Source: Flavobacteriaceae bacterium (GTDB taxonomy: Bacteria > Bacteroidota > Bacteroidia > Flavobacteriales > Flavobacteriaceae). From it: a DNA stretch of 35,850 nucleotides. Positions 14,043-21,484 of the stretch are shown here, piece by piece. How positions within the stretch are numbered: position 1 is the stretch's first letter; every line of letters begins with the position of its first letter. The position numbers were made by a program, and so were the translations under genes. The notes beneath the pieces were generated by a model. The model had not been told where the DNA came from. It saw only the letters and a list, made by a program, of their open reading frames with translations, and made no database searches. The DNA lies in contig JABAZA010000005.1 of the NCBI GenBank assembly GCA_018608725.1, positions 1 to 35,850 of the forward strand, read 5' to 3'.

Positions 14043-14759
14043 ATGGAATTAAAGAAAAACTCAAAAGCAGATGTTAGTAAGAATGCATCTCTCTATTTCG
14101 CAGTTGGTTTAGCACTTATGTTGTTTTTATCATACAGTGCGCTTAATCATAAGACTTATGATAAATCAGCAATTGATATCGGAAAATTAGATTTAGATGC
14201 AGAACTCGATGAAGAAATTCCTTTAATAGATCAATTAACTCCACCACCACCACCGCCACCACCACCGGCAGCACCAGAAGTCATAGAAATTGTGGAGGAT
14301 GAAGAAGAAATTGAAGAAACGGTTATTGAATCTACAGAAACGGATCAAGACGAAGAAATTGAAATAGAAGAAATTGAAGTAGAAGAAATTTATGAAGATG
14401 TTGAGGTGCCTTTCTCTGTGATTGAAAATGTACCTGAATATCCAGGATGTGAAAAAGGATCTAACGCTGATAAAAGAAAATGTATGTCTGCTAAAATTGC
14501 AAAATTTGTACAACGCAAATTTAATACAGATTTAGCGGGTGATTTAGGCCTGTCAGGAAGACAACGTATCAGTGTGATTTTCAAAATTGACAAAAAAGGG
14601 AATGTAACTGGTGTACGATCTAGAGCACCACACCCACGATTAGAAAAAGAAGCGGCACGTGTAATTAATATGTTGCCAAAAATGAAACCAGGACGTCAAC
14701 GCGGAAAAGCTGTGATCGTTCCATACTCTTTACCTATTACTTTTCAAGTTCAAGATTAA
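14043..14759 (+). CDS. TonB-family energy transducer (paralogue 1)
   Basis: Inner-membrane-anchored protein that carries proton-motive energy from ExbB-ExbD to outer-membrane receptors. The 238 residues comprise a short cytoplasmic N-terminus, one membrane segment (about 18-37), a run of nine prolines, and a strongly acidic linker rich in Glu, Ile and Val. A TonB C-terminal domain follows, beginning at VPEYPGCEKG and containing VIFKIDKKGNVTGVRSRAPHPRLEKEAARV. The linker is acidic rather than the Pro/Lys-Pro type of enterobacterial TonB. Two cysteines in YPGCEKG and KRKCM could form a periplasmic disulfide. A tandem paralogue follows, and exb genes lie about 3.6 kb downstream in the same direction. 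Its own terminator follows immediately. Confidence 0.88.
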   Translation: MELKKNSKADVSKNASLYFAVGLALMLFLSYSALNHKTYDKSAIDIGKLDLDAELDEEIPLIDQLTPPPPPPPPPAAPEVIEIVEDEEEIEETVIESTETDQDEEIEIEEIEVEEIYEDVEVPFSVIENVPEYPGCEKGSNADKRKCMSAKIAKFVQRKFNTDLAGDLGLSGRQRISVIFKIDKKGNVTGVRSRAPHPRLEKEAARVINMLPKMKPGRQRGKAVIVPYSLPITFQVQD

Positions 14760-14785
14760 GTTCTTTTAACGTTGTTAAACTATAT

Positions 14786-14810
14786 AAATCCCGCTTTGGC
14801 GGGATTTTTT
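14786..14810 (+). terminator. Rho-independent terminator after tonB paralogue 1
   Basis: A 9-bp GC-rich stem (AAATCCCGC paired with GCGGGATTT) closes a TTTG loop and runs into a T tract. It lies 26 bp after the stop codon and separates the two tonB transcripts. Confidence 0.9.
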
Positions 14811-14859
14811 GGTATGTTTATTGTGGTATATAAATTCATAACCCCTAAAACCTATCCTT

Positions 14860-15606
14860 ATGAAATCGCCACCTGACAAACCCCAACAACGCTTACCAAA
14901 GAAAAATTCGAAAGCTAATGTTGGTCAAAATAGTGCCATCTATTTTGCTCTTGGCTTAGTATTGATGTTATTCGTTTCGTATCAATCCATTAATTATAAG
15001 TCATACGATAAATCTGATATCGATATAGGTGCTTTAAATCTTGAAGAAGAAAACGAAGAAGAAATTCCAATCATTGATTTAGTCAAGCCACCTCCACCGC
15101 CACCACCGCCACCGGCAGCACCAGAAGTCATAGAAATTGTGGAGGATGAAGAAGAGGTCGAAGAAACAGTCATTGAATCGTCGGAAACCGACCAAGAAGA
15201 AGAGATTGAAATCGAAGAAGTTGAGGTCGAAGAGGTCGAAGAGGATGTTGAGGTACCATTTTCAGTGATCGAAAACGTTCCGGAATACCCAGGCTGTGAA
15301 AAAGGCACTAATTCCGAAAAACGTAAATGTATGTCCAAAAAAATCGAAAAATTTATCCAAAAAAAGTTCAATACAGACTTAGCGGGTGATTTAGGATTAA
15401 CCGGAAAACAACGGATTAATGTTATTTTTAAAATTGACAAAAACGGAAATGTAACAGGAGTGCGCTCTCGAGCACCACACCCCCGCTTAGAAAAAGAAGC
15501 CGCACGTGTAGTGAATTTGTTGCCAAAAATGAAGCCAGGGCGTCAACGCGGAAAGGCAGTAGTCGTTCCTTATTCGTTGCCAATTACCTTTTTAGTTCAA
15601 GATTAA
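14860..15606 (+). CDS. TonB-family energy transducer (paralogue 2)
   Basis: Tandem paralogue of the preceding gene with the same order in 248 residues: a longer basic N-terminus (PPDKPQQRLPKKNSK), one membrane segment (about 26-45), nine prolines, an acidic Glu/Val linker, and the TonB C-terminal domain with the same two cysteines and an almost identical NVTGVRSRAPHPRLEKEAARV stretch. Forty-seven bases spanning the end of the proline run and the start of the acidic linker are identical to paralogue 1, although synonymous differences are frequent on both sides. The two copies are separated by a terminator, so they may be expressed differently and serve different receptor sets; that division of labour is inference. 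Confidence 0.88.
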   Translation: MKSPPDKPQQRLPKKNSKANVGQNSAIYFALGLVLMLFVSYQSINYKSYDKSDIDIGALNLEEENEEEIPIIDLVKPPPPPPPPPAAPEVIEIVEDEEEVEETVIESSETDQEEEIEIEEVEVEEVEEDVEVPFSVIENVPEYPGCEKGTNSEKRKCMSKKIEKFIQKKFNTDLAGDLGLTGKQRINVIFKIDKNGNVTGVRSRAPHPRLEKEAARVVNLLPKMKPGRQRGKAVVVPYSLPITFLVQD

Positions 15607-18006: not shown

Positions 18007-18074
18007 AATTAGGCCCCAAAATTTCACCAATTAAACTATTTTTTCTTTATTTGGGCTGCTTAAAAAAGCAAATT

Positions 18075-18159
18075 AGAGAGGTGGCCGAGTGGCTTAAGGC
18101 GCACGCTTGGAAAGCGTGTATACGGCAACGTATCGAGGGTTCGAATCCCTTCCTCTCTG
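18075..18159 (+). tRNA. tRNA-Ser (anticodon GGA)
   Basis: An 85-base class II tRNA folds fully. The acceptor stem AGAGAGG pairs with CCTCTCT and is followed by discriminator G. The anticodon stem CACGC/GCGTG holds the loop TTGGAAA with anticodon GGA at 18109-18111. A long variable arm (TATACG-GCAA-CGTAT) and a T arm with TTCGAAT follow. CCA is not encoded. It reads UCC and UCU codons. Confidence 0.97.
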
Positions 18160-18353
18160 CAATTGCCTTTGTGTTAATGATTTAGACTTTTTTTAATTGG
18201 CAAGCAATCGCTTTTCATTTAAAATTGGTATTGAATATTTGTACTAAAACTTGTTGAGTTTTGTCATTTTTGTTTTGGTAATTACATTTTTTTTATATCT
18301 TTATCATCTTGTATAAAGAGTAATATTTTTAATAAAATCAACAACATAGAACA
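18160..18353 (+). promoter_or_regulatory. Intergenic region with candidate exb operon promoter
   Basis: AT-rich spacer between the tRNA and exbB with no gene. TTTTG ending at 18277, then 18 bp, then TATCTTTA (18296-18303), resembles the Bacteroidota -33/-7 arrangement, with A instead of G at the last -7 position. It predicts a start near 18310 and a leader of about 45 bases. The rest shows no clear structure. Confidence 0.4.
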
Positions 18354-19139
18354 ATGAAAAGATTATTTCCAATTCTAGCTATTGCATTTGTAATGGCATT
18401 CGGGTCTGTAAGTGCAACTTCATACACGAACATTAACATGAACATTCTTGCTACGACTATTGTGAGTCCTGTTCAAGATGACGCCGCTTCAGATGGCGCA
18501 GAAGAATCTATCGGCTTTCACCAAGAACTAAAAAATAGATTTATTGAAGGGGGTCCTGGATTTATGGGCATCGTTTTGTTATGTCTTATATTAGGACTTG
18601 CAATTGCAATTGAAAGAATTATTTTCTTAAACCTTTCAACTACCAATTCTAAAAAATTAATTGATGAAGTAGAAGGCGCTTTATCCTCTGGCGGATTAGA
18701 GGCTGCTAAGGAAGTTTGTAGAAACACAAAAGGACCTATCGCATCCATCTTTTATCAAGGATTAGATCGTGCCAACGAAGATTTAGACTCTGCCGAAAAA
18801 GCAGTGGTTGCTTATGGAGGTGTTCAAATGGGACAATTAGAGAAAAACGTTTCTTGGATCTCATTATTTATTGCATTAGCTCCAATGTTAGGATTTATGG
18901 GAACTGTAATCGGAATGATTCAAGCCTTTGATAAAATTGAAGAAGCAGGAGACATGCAACCATCACTTGTTGCTGGGGGTATTAAAGTTGCACTTCTAAC
19001 AACAGTATTTGGACTGGTTGTTGCAATCATACTTCAAGTCTTTTATAATTATATCATTGCTAAAATTGACAGCATTGTAAATGACATGGAAGATTCCTCT
19101 ATATCTTTAATGGATATATTGGTTAAAAACAAAAAATAA
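18354..19139 (+). CDS. exbB: ExbB/TolQ/MotA-family proton channel subunit
   Basis: Inner-membrane proton-channel subunit that, with ExbD, energises TonB. The 261 residues begin with an extra hydrophobic segment (about 4-22, cleaved signal or additional helix) and an acidic periplasmic stretch. The conserved core has membrane helices at about 69-91, 168-190 and 211-235, including APMLGFMGTVIGMIQAF and LLTTVFGLVVAIILQ, the hallmark of the family. The N-terminal extension is common in Bacteroidota ExbB. It is the first gene of a four-gene operon with an unknown four-TM protein and two ExbD proteins. TonB partners are encoded upstream at 14043-15606. Confidence 0.92.
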   Translation: MKRLFPILAIAFVMAFGSVSATSYTNINMNILATTIVSPVQDDAASDGAEESIGFHQELKNRFIEGGPGFMGIVLLCLILGLAIAIERIIFLNLSTTNSKKLIDEVEGALSSGGLEAAKEVCRNTKGPIASIFYQGLDRANEDLDSAEKAVVAYGGVQMGQLEKNVSWISLFIALAPMLGFMGTVIGMIQAFDKIEEAGDMQPSLVAGGIKVALLTTVFGLVVAIILQVFYNYIIAKIDSIVNDMEDSSISLMDILVKNKK

Positions 19140-19167
19140 TAACACCTCAATACTAAATCAAATAATT

Positions 19168-19605
19168 ATGGATTTACAAAAATTATTGAAAATTGTAGCT
19201 ATTGTCATTGGTGTAATTTCAATCTATTTCCTAGGAAATATAATATCTACTGGAAATGATCAGATAAGAGCAGGCGAAGGCAGCGGGATCGTAAATATGT
19301 TTATGTACGTATCTTATATCGTCCTAGCCATTGCTGTCCTTATTGTATTAGTTTTTTCAGTGCTCAATACAGTTTCAAACACTGCAAGCTTAAAAAACAC
19401 CCTTACAGGAGTTGCCGCTTTTGTGGTTCTAGCTTTGCTTTGCTACTTCGTTGCCGATGGCGCAGAAACGCCCCTTAAAAATGGCGACATGCTTTCAGCA
19501 AGTGGTTCAAAGTTAGTTGGAGCAGGATTGTATTTATTCTATCTATTGGCTGTAATTGCTGGTGGAATAATGTTAGGATTTGGAATCAAAAAAATGGTAA
19601 AATAA
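19168..19605 (+). CDS. Conserved four-TM protein of the exbB-exbD operon, function unknown
   Basis: I do not recognise a named family. The 145-residue protein is mostly membrane: hydrophobic segments at about 6-26, 42-68, 77-97 and 114-140, with short loops (ISTGNDQIRAGEGSG and ADGAETPLKNGDMLSASG) and a positively charged end (KKMVK). It sits 28 bp after exbB and 1 bp before exbD, so its expression is tightly linked to the proton-channel genes. The position suggests an accessory subunit or assembly factor of the Exb complex, but this is inference from context only. Confidence 0.8.
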   Translation: MDLQKLLKIVAIVIGVISIYFLGNIISTGNDQIRAGEGSGIVNMFMYVSYIVLAIAVLIVLVFSVLNTVSNTASLKNTLTGVAAFVVLALLCYFVADGAETPLKNGDMLSASGSKLVGAGLYLFYLLAVIAGGIMLGFGIKKMVK

Positions 19606-19606
19606 T

Positions 19607-20212
19607 ATGGCTAAGCGATCTGCACCTGAAGTGAATGCGGGCTCTATGGCCGACATTGCCTTCTTATTGTTAATATTTTTCTTGGTTACAACAACCATAG
19701 AAAAGGATTCTGGACTCAATCGAAAACTTCCTCCTATTGAAGAAGATATTGAGCCGCCTATCATTAAGCAAAGGAATATTTTTACAGTACTCCTGAACGG
19801 TAAGGATCAATTGCTAGTCGAAGAAGAATTGATGGAAATCAAAGACTTGAGAGCTGCAGCTATCGAGTTTTTAGATAACAATGGAGACGGAACCTGCACC
19901 TATTGTCAAGGTCCTAAAAACGCCTCCTCTTCAGATAATCCAGACAAAGCAATTATATCCTTAAAGAACGATAGAGAAACTTCTTATGCAACTTATATTT
20001 CTGTTCAAAATGAATTGGTAGCAGCCTACAATGTGCTTCGAAACAGAAGAGCACTAGAATTAGGGCCGCCTCAAGGATTTACAGATATGAATTTTGTGGA
20101 AATGCAAAAGAATTATAAAGACGCTCGCTTTGTAGGAAACAAAACAAAGTTAAAAGAAGTGATTAATCAGATAAAATTAGAGTTTCCTCAGAAACTTTCT
20201 GAAGTCCAGTAG
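19607..20212 (+). CDS. exbD: ExbD/TolR-family protein 1, with Cys-containing insertion
   Basis: Proton-channel partner of ExbB. The 201 residues have a short cytoplasmic N-terminus, then NAGSMADIAFLLLIFFLVTT, the single helix with the conserved Asp16 that carries protons, then a periplasmic domain. That domain is longer than in E. coli ExbD (141 residues). It includes an insertion with DNNGDGTCTYC at 90-100, which resembles a calcium-binding DxNxDG loop fused to a CxxC pair (Cys97, Cys100). The start ATG is 1 bp after the four-TM gene. A second ExbD follows after 25 bp. Confidence 0.9.
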   Translation: MAKRSAPEVNAGSMADIAFLLLIFFLVTTTIEKDSGLNRKLPPIEEDIEPPIIKQRNIFTVLLNGKDQLLVEEELMEIKDLRAAAIEFLDNNGDGTCTYCQGPKNASSSDNPDKAIISLKNDRETSYATYISVQNELVAAYNVLRNRRALELGPPQGFTDMNFVEMQKNYKDARFVGNKTKLKEVINQIKLEFPQKLSEVQ

Positions 20213-20237
20213 TTTAATTAAAAAGTAAAGAAACAAC

Positions 20238-20717
20238 ATGTCAAAATTTAAAAAGAAATCTGACGGAGGCACACCGGCCATTTCAACGGCTTCACTTCCA
20301 GATATTGTATTTATGTTACTGTTCTTTTTTATGGTAGCTACTGTGATGCGCGAAAATTCACTCAAAATCCAAAATGCACTTCCTGTCGCAAACCAAGTTG
20401 AAAAACTCGATAAGAAAAACCCAGTAAGCTATATTTATATGGGTAAACCAAGTGCAGGTTATGAAAAGTTTGGAACCGAACCAAGAATTCAACTGAACGA
20501 TCAATTCGCAGAGCTTTCAGAAGTAGGCGCATTTATTGGAGCTGAAAGAGCAGCCTTAAGAGAAGAATTAATTCCGTTTCTTACCGTTGCCCTTAAAGTT
20601 GACAAAGATGCCAATATGGGAATTGTGGGCGATGTTAAGTACGAACTTAGAAAAGTCAACGCGCTTAAAATTAACTACACCACCGGAGTTGGTGATGCGT
20701 TGAACAACATCAAATAA
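20238..20717 (+). CDS. exbD: ExbD/TolR-family protein 2
   Basis: Second ExbD of the operon. The 159 residues have a basic N-terminus (SKFKKKSDGG), a membrane helix at about 20-38 with the conserved Asp22 (SLPDIVFMLLFFFMVATVM), and a periplasmic domain lacking the insertion seen in its neighbour. Two ExbD proteins per ExbB are common in Bacteroidota and may assemble as a heterodimer within the ExbB ring; that arrangement is inference here. A strong terminator ends the operon. Confidence 0.9.
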   Translation: MSKFKKKSDGGTPAISTASLPDIVFMLLFFFMVATVMRENSLKIQNALPVANQVEKLDKKNPVSYIYMGKPSAGYEKFGTEPRIQLNDQFAELSEVGAFIGAERAALREELIPFLTVALKVDKDANMGIVGDVKYELRKVNALKINYTTGVGDALNNIK

Positions 20718-20737: not shown

Positions 20738-20768
20738 AAAAGGCATTCTACTCAGAATGCCTTTTTTT
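20738..20768 (+). terminator. Rho-independent terminator of the exb operon
   Basis: A 12-bp perfect stem (AAAAGGCATTCT with AGAATGCCTTTT) closes a four-base loop ACTC and continues into a T tract, 20 bp after the exbD2 stop. Confidence 0.92.
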
Positions 20769-20803: not shown

Positions 20804-21484
20804 ATGAGATTTCGTGTATTTTTATTCCTTTTTTGCAATTTTGTAGGTGCCTATGCACAATCTAATAAAGCTGCCGAATTGGATAGTTTGTATAGAGAAG
20901 ATCAAATTTATATTGGAGTTACTTATAATGCACTTGTAAATTTACCGTCTGGAGTCTCTCAAAACAGTTTTTCTACTGGGTTTCATTTGGGTGTTATTAG
21001 AGATTTTCCGATCAATAAACGTCGCAATGTCGCCATTGGTTTAGGGCTTGGCTATTCCATTAATACATTCAATCAAAACATTAGAATTAGTTCAACAACC
21101 CCAACGACTTACACAATTTTAGAAGACATTAATTATTCCAAAAATAATTTCTCCCAACACCTTTTAGAAGTTCCTTTGGAATTTCGCTGGCGAACCTCTA
21201 ATGCAGAAACGTATAAGTTTTGGCGGGTATATACAGGAGTAAAAATGGGGTATTTATTGGCTTCAAAATCTGTGTACAACGGCGAGCCGGGCAATGAAAC
21301 ACATAGAGGTTTGACAGGGTTAAATACGTGGCAGTACGGACTAACTCTGAGTGTTGGCTATAACACTTGGAACGGCTACATTTACTATGGTTTGAATCCG
21401 ATTTTTGACTCCATTTCCTCTACAAACGCACAATCTATTGAAATGAATGCCTTAAAAATAGGTCTGATTTTCTATATCTTATAG
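20804..21484 (+). CDS. PorT/SprT-like outer-membrane beta-barrel protein
   Basis: A 226-residue exported protein: signal peptide RFRVFLFLFCNFVGAYAQ cut before Ser20, then alternating hydrophobic beta-strand sequence with Gly and aromatic residues, ending ALKIGLIFYIL. Size and pattern fit the PorT family of eight-stranded barrels, whose founding member in Porphyromonas gingivalis (SprT in Flavobacterium) is needed for type IX secretion. Family-level similarity to other small barrels is low, so assignment to PorT itself is moderate. sprA in the same window is consistent but 7.6 kb away. It overlaps the convergent downstream gene by 6 bp. Confidence 0.65.
   Translation: MRFRVFLFLFCNFVGAYAQSNKAAELDSLYREDQIYIGVTYNALVNLPSGVSQNSFSTGFHLGVIRDFPINKRRNVAIGLGLGYSINTFNQNIRISSTTPTTYTILEDINYSKNNFSQHLLEVPLEFRWRTSNAETYKFWRVYTGVKMGYLLASKSVYNGEPGNETHRGLTGLNTWQYGLTLSVGYNTWNGYIYYGLNPIFDSISSTNAQSIEMNALKIGLIFYIL

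Follow-up and report, generated by a model that had tools for sequence, protein, structure and literature searches.

A small membrane protein encoded between exbB and exbD1 as a probable accessory subunit of one Ton motor lineage in Bacteroidota

Described Ton systems and the exb locus of the window

Members of the Bacteroidota rely on TonB to drive their import of glycans, iron, and vitamins, and most knowledge of the Ton motor comes from E. coli and its relatives. In the available text of a Ton/Tol review, the E. coli motor is a proton-driven 5:2 assembly that pulls on TonB, the only subunits named are ExbB, ExbD, and TonB, and the TonB helix meets ExbB at its lateral face through an SHLS-type contact with ExbB TM1 (PMC12905483). 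In Riemerella anatipestifer, the TonB2 system is given as exbB2-exbD21-exbD22-tonB2 in the accessible part of the report (PMC4446302). A proteome study of Maribacter forsetii, likewise available in part, lists an ExbB (P177_RS03305) and the ExbDs RS03315 and RS03320 (PMC11345257).

The window, i.e., the whole stretch of 35,850 nucleotides analyzed here, carries on its forward strand a Ton motor cluster in which both ExbB and ExbD score above their Pfam cut-offs (PF01618 and PF02472). The exbB gene (18354..19139) encodes a 261-residue proton-channel ring subunit of the lineage that we call type I (PF01618, E 2.7e-30, 105.1 bits, cut-off 22.9). Its stop at 19139 is followed, after a gap of 28 bp, by an ATG-start ORF (19168..19605) that encodes a four-helix inner-membrane protein of 145 residues, predicted to be N-in/C-in, for which no family scores above cut-off and which we call X. 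A gap of 1 bp separates the stop of X at 19605 from the start of exbD1 (19607..20212), encoding a single-helix axle subunit of 201 residues with its membrane Asp at residue 16 (PF02472, E 9.2e-18, 65.0 bits, cut-off 25.4). The exbD2 gene (20238..20717) encodes a second, different axle subunit of 159 residues with its membrane Asp at residue 22 (PF02472, E 3.2e-13, 50.3 bits, cut-off 25.4). The original prediction of a 145-residue membrane ORF, 28 bp past exbB and 1 bp ahead of exbD, held when the ORF was re-read. Its placing of X between exbB and exbD also stands, while its account of the neighborhood overlooked the second exbD, two tandem tonB genes nearby, and a terminator-like stem.

The four genes exbB-X-exbD1-exbD2 are likely to form one transcription unit. 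The terminator-like stem lies 3′ of exbD2 (20738..20765, listed on both strands) and, as a consensus match, comprises 12 pairs, four of them G-C, and a T run. The promoter type of the phylum is TTG-N17-23-TANNTTTG; a script scan without shuffled control gave six near-matches in the 347 bp 5′ of exbB (18007-18353) vs. one in 18354-20717, and the promoter-like region upstream of exbB was placed at 18197..18303 on the forward strand. Since the stretch 5′ of exbB is AT-rich, part of this excess may reflect base composition. Generic sigma-70-like matches (9 of 12) cover 19111-19166, a stretch that takes in the exbB-X gap and the last part of exbB, and an internal promoter may be present there. A tRNA-Ser (GGA) gene lies between the asparaginase gene and exbB (18075-18160). 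On the other side of the cluster, the gene at 20804-21484 encodes a beta-barrel protein of the outer membrane (PF13568) with a weak, sub-cut-off likeness to PorT/SprT (E 0.031); in many loci of the window’s family, such a gene adjoins the exb operon at its 3′ end.

The membrane Asp is kept in 151/151 aligned homologues of ExbD1 and in 151/151 of ExbD2, which makes it probable that the axle is a heterodimer whose two helices are both able to carry protons. ExbD1 (19607-20212) also has a periplasmic CxxC, GDGTCTYCQGPKN; the CxxC is present in 64/89 ExbD1 homologues of the window’s own class and in 0/62 of other classes. Candidate force transducers for the motor are two very similar, proline-rich TonB paralogues encoded in tandem on the forward strand. 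The first (14043..14759, 238 aa) scores over the PF03544 cut-off at 14565-14747, and the second (14860..15606, 248 aa; PF03544, E 8.4e-9) does so at 15412-15591, ending 2.7 kb 5′ of exbB. Together these two genes (14043-15606), within 4.4 kb 5′ of exbB, give the only PF03544 matches in the 82.5%-complete assembly, and the 308-residue transducer of a second exb cluster in the same genome (contig C99) does not score as PF03544. Type I is thus probably the cell’s Ton motor, and it would energize the tandem TonBs. The membrane segment of the second TonB is without histidine, and the first has one just past the segment end; with no histidine within either segment, and with the spacing of the E. coli SHLS-type contact in mind, the contact with ExbB TM1 probably differs here. 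No homologue of the window’s TonB was found in 28 other-class loci of ~7 kb.

Occurrence of X and its tie to type-I ExbB

The occurrence of X was surveyed in a phylum sample of 395 genomes with one ExbB profile and two X profiles, A1 and A3. The searches scored the best 6-10 first-look candidates per genome, so that a miss in them does not prove absence; for 125 genomes in which all candidates were scored, the strong X matches were the same as in the best-candidate A3 search. Profile A1, built from the window’s order only, missed nearly all short forms of other classes, finding 2 of the 93 other-class X later found by the wider A3. ExbB was called type I above 330 bits in the window’s own class and at a best E of 6.7e-77 or lower in other classes. 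On this basis, type-I ExbB is present in 162/395 genomes (36 of the own class, 125 of other classes, and G373, in which it is cut by the contig start), and X, at E 6.9e-12 or lower, in 129/395 (36, 92, and the one at the contig start). The X genomes of the sample represent 20 families, or 33 when close relatives and re-read genomes are added.

All 129 strong X matches lie directly 3′ of a type-I ExbB, i.e., in this sample of one phylum every such match (129/129) belongs to a locus of this motor. The gaps between ExbB and X, taken from profile matches (in G373 by reading), measure 8-108 bp in genomes of the own class and range from -9 to 269 bp in the others. No strong X match away from type-I ExbB was found in the 395 genomes; matches elsewhere had weak E values, from 1.4e-4 to 9.3e-3, and fell in open frames 166-1059 aa long. 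They numbered two, eight, and six per search, some being shared. The original prediction had named homologues mostly away from exb genes as the finding that would speak against it, and the survey gave the opposite picture. Its wording, a partner of “the Bacteroidota Exb motor,” was sound in that X goes with Exb genes and too broad in that X goes with one ExbB lineage only, 33 of the 162 type-I genomes being without it.

Among close relatives, a profile search found X in 53/60. Two of the seven misses (G045 and G054; loci L206 and L207) carry X in place when the DNA is read, and the other five have no type-I ExbB; they comprise two incomplete assemblies of the same genus, one 0.3-Mb genome, and two members of family f5. 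In 72 loci read (L001-L072), which include 18 from named records, several of them duplicates of other genomes of the set, ExbB lies 5′ of X in 70 and ExbD1-ExbD2 3′ of X in 71, the three exceptions being cut by contig ends. X is nearly always single-copy; one genome has two type-I clusters (L022 and L057) with an X in each, that of L057 being partial. Neither type-I ExbB nor X was found in 21/23 sampled genomes of genus g40, of the window’s own family, which indicates that the motor type can be replaced, nor in the sampled genomes of families f5, f17, f18, f23, and f24.

X does not occur wherever the type-I motor does. The 33/162 type-I genomes without a strong X match belong to families f27, f29, f31, and f49 only. 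In 22 of the 23 such loci that were read, ExbD1 comes 13-50 bp after ExbB; the remaining one, L288 in G063, is the single f29 locus that was read; it stops 141 bp past ExbB, and X may therefore lie off the contig. A reading of 31 loci for contrast comprised one X-less type I (L175), one degenerate type-I orphan (L176), and 29 of other ExbB lineages. In 28 of these 29, ExbD follows at a distance of at most 92 bp and no membrane ORF intervenes; in the 29th (L189) no ExbD was recognized. The 28 include the second exbB of the window’s genome, on contig C99, which is followed by exbD after 1 bp, with no X. The orphan (L176 1498-2280, genome G407) is a degenerate type-I ExbB with an altered APMLGFMGTVIGM stretch, and neither X nor ExbD was found in the 1.4 kb behind it.

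After removal of duplicates by ExbB sequence, 272 clusters were reduced to 201 unique ones, of which 153 are type I with X, seven are type I without X (plus L057, cut by a contig end), 39 are of other kinds without X (including L176 and L189), and one (L011) has X and an ExbB cut by the contig start. Exactly two ExbDs are present in 151/153 of the unique clusters with X. A maximum-likelihood tree was built from 87 ExbBs (56/153 with X, 7/7 type I then known to be without X, and 24/38 others, several of the latter on long branches). Type I forms one group (support 100/99), within which the rows with X form one group (84/80, moderate support) and the seven rows without X another (94/85). This pattern suggests that X was either gained once or lost once, the root leaving gain vs. 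loss undecided. In the X-less clade, exbD2 of L144 (4874-7001) is followed by yqeY and cvpA, as assigned by Pfam, and then by an ORF that is weakly MutS-like, below cut-off; L145 and L162-L164 have ORFs of similar size 3′ of exbD2.

The cluster is a conserved unit while its flanks change outside the window’s class. TatD is present in 12/24 and asparaginase in 15/24 loci of the window’s family and order (L049-L072), and TatD in 12/12 further loci of the own class. None of seven window neighbors was found in the 28 other-class loci of ~7 kb, of which 22 keep exbB-X-exbD1-exbD2 and six belong to the X-less clade. In five other-class loci, the flanking genes encode isocitrate/isopropylmalate dehydrogenase (Iso_dh), DUF4293, EamA, AIR synthase-like, and peptidase M32 proteins. 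No ORF fusing X to ExbB or to ExbD was found among 995 ORFs with a match.

Properties of X and its possible roles

X is conserved as a protein, and the window copy, compared with those of five close relatives, has a dN/dS of 0.05-0.19 (a sixth pair being saturated), which together indicate a real gene under purifying selection. The dN/dS values of exbB, exbD1, and exbD2 in close-relative pairs were 0.02-0.09. X is the fastest-evolving of the four genes, with a dN ~2-4 times that of ExbB in six pairs, and is for that reason less expected as a core part of the motor. The four membrane helices originally predicted are borne out for the window copy; among 151 aligned homologues, 75 have four predicted helices and 76 have three, the short forms being without the first helix. 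In four-helix forms, K and R lie at the N-terminus, middle loop, and C-terminus (means of 1.8, 2.2, and 2.5) and D and E in the two outer loops (means of 3.5 and 3.6), a distribution that points to an N-in/C-in topology. Across the 151 homologues, no position in the helices has a conserved ionizable residue (K/R/D/E), and X is therefore probably not the proton path itself. A soluble domain for signaling is absent. The structure model, made from only 19 close sequences, has four long helices (pLDDT 65, pTM 0.42), and comparison of this weak model with PDB folds gave no match with E below 2.5.

Searches against known families were largely negative. No Pfam or NCBIfam model scored over its cut-off on the window’s X, and over 54 X members the matches to both collections were few and weak. 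Sub-threshold matches to DctQ (PF04290) in 3/54 members at E ≤ 0.01 (best 4.3e-7) and to Colicin_V (CvpA, PF02674) in 2/54 (best E 7e-4) might be taken to place X, much diverged, in an established family of small membrane proteins, either DctQ of TRAP transporters or CvpA. We consider the chance of this close to negligible. DctQ was rejected because the window copy scores 20.4 bits against a gathering cut-off of 28.3 and so few members match; in addition, no TRAP Q subunit was among the 25 matches listed for the X family profile against the PDB, and a TRAP gene was absent among eight window proteins scanned. CvpA (Colicin V production protein, PF02674) was rejected on the small number of matching members and on an hhalign probability of 1.1% for X against five CvpA neighbors. 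The MotA/TolQ/ExbB proton channel family (PF01618) was likewise rejected, there being no PF01618 match in the 54 members and an hhalign value of 1.3% against ExbB; without conserved ionizable helix residues, X also has no counterpart of the polar channel residue expected of that family. The best PDB profile match of X, NuoJ (E 0.0017), was taken to reflect helix composition. Designed armadillo proteins returned by phmmer against the PDB matched over a short hydrophobic stretch and were rejected as a composition effect.

We consider it fairly probable that X serves constitutively as an accessory subunit in a variant Ton motor whose two ExbDs differ. X would be made right after ExbB and, within the inner membrane, would pack on the outer side of the ExbB ring; its C-terminus would lie in the cytoplasm, as would the N-terminus of the long form. 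There it could keep the ring stable around an axle built from two different ExbD helices, shape a lateral site for TonB docking, or do both; protons would pass via ExbB and ExbD as usual, and X would carry none. A position on the outside of the ring is suggested by the place of the gene, the lack of ionizable residues, the topology, and the strict tie to one ExbB lineage. The more specific arrangement of an ExbB ring, a two-ExbD axle, TonB, and X as a lateral subunit that makes or guards the TonB docking surface, amounting in part of the phylum to a distinct class of Ton motor with a larger set of subunit types than the textbook one, is put forward tentatively and seems rather unlikely; under it, X may be the missing adaptor, older than the split of the classes that carry it. 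Counted against a subunit role in general are the 33/162 type-I genomes without X, the weak structure model, and the lack of X-ExbB or X-ExbD fusions.

Other explanations make different use of the same observations. X could be an assembly factor, acting on the ExbB ring as it forms, e.g., so as to admit one ExbD1 and one ExbD2 rather than two alike, and then leaving; this is a possibility to be taken seriously if not a likely one. The location of X in the clusters read, after exbB and ahead of exbD1, the near-constant pair of ExbDs beside it (151/153 unique clusters), its helices free of conserved ionizable residues, and its faster evolution than the motor genes would all agree with such a factor. 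However, motors with two different ExbDs exist without X, at 22 loci in the type-I clade that lacks it (7 plus 15 of 16 read later) and in 15 unique clusters of another ExbB lineage, and X is therefore not generally needed to build one. Alternatively, X could work with the motor without binding ExbB, e.g., by setting local lipid or peptidoglycan contact or by regulating motor activity or turnover. Gene linkage, however strong, does not prove contact. Comparison of ExbB conservation with and without X gave no clear docking signature; four scattered sites are conserved where X is present and relaxed where it is absent, and 12 show the opposite direction, the X-less set being of low diversity. 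In a mean-field DCA on 151 of 153 paired ExbB, X, ExbD1, and ExbD2 rows (Neff 69), 19 of the 50 top-ranked pairs lay within one protein vs. ~26% expected from lengths, an enrichment so slight that true contacts barely stand out. Yet a block kept across changing flanks is typical of members of a complex, and X has no soluble signaling domain; we regard a role without binding as unlikely.

It is very improbable that X is a passenger, i.e., an unrelated membrane protein kept in the operon for historical or expression reasons. The type-I genomes that do without X (33/162) would fit this explanation, but X occupies the same place in 129/129 genomes of 20 families, has no strong match away from type-I ExbB, and is under purifying selection. 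An accessory subunit of the type-I motor thus remains the reading that we favor.

Comparison with known systems

A literature search, with preprints and most subscription journals outside its scope, found no paper naming the X gene. X is unmentioned in the available portions of reports on R. anatipestifer (PMC4446302), E. anophelis (PMC4026382), and Maribacter (PMC11345257, PMC11036162), and in those of the Ton/Tol review (PMC12905483) and a force-transducer survey (PMC12204202). In M. forsetii, judging by locus tag numbers in the accessible part of the study, one gene, RS03310, would fit X between ExbB and the ExbDs if tags step by five, and the second system of this organism (RS16115, RS16110) has no tag gap (PMC11345257). 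The R. anatipestifer TonB2 system is like the type-I cluster of the window in having one exbB and two different exbDs; unlike that cluster, it has no gene between them in the part of the report available (PMC4446302), and it resembles instead the second X-free arrangement (15 unique clusters), a likeness of gene order alone. The C99 cluster of the window’s own genome, exbB-exbD-transducer, shares the Pfam families of ExbB and ExbD but has one ExbD, no X, and the 308-aa transducer that is not PF03544.

The MotAB stator, likewise a 5:2 motor, has small membrane proteins associated with it, FliL among them. FliL combines a single membrane helix with a periplasmic domain; its likeness to X would be one of role. 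If X is a further motor protein in several classes, the textbook set of ExbB, ExbD, and TonB is incomplete for one motor lineage. X is small and nearly always present as one copy, which makes its role directly testable, and natural comparison sets exist in the clades of type-I ExbB with and without X and in the X-free second motor of the same cell. Overall, the type-I cluster of the window resembles the E. coli TonB-ExbB-ExbD system in its PF01618 and PF02472 homologues with the membrane Asp, and differs from it in adding X between the motor genes and in having two different ExbDs.
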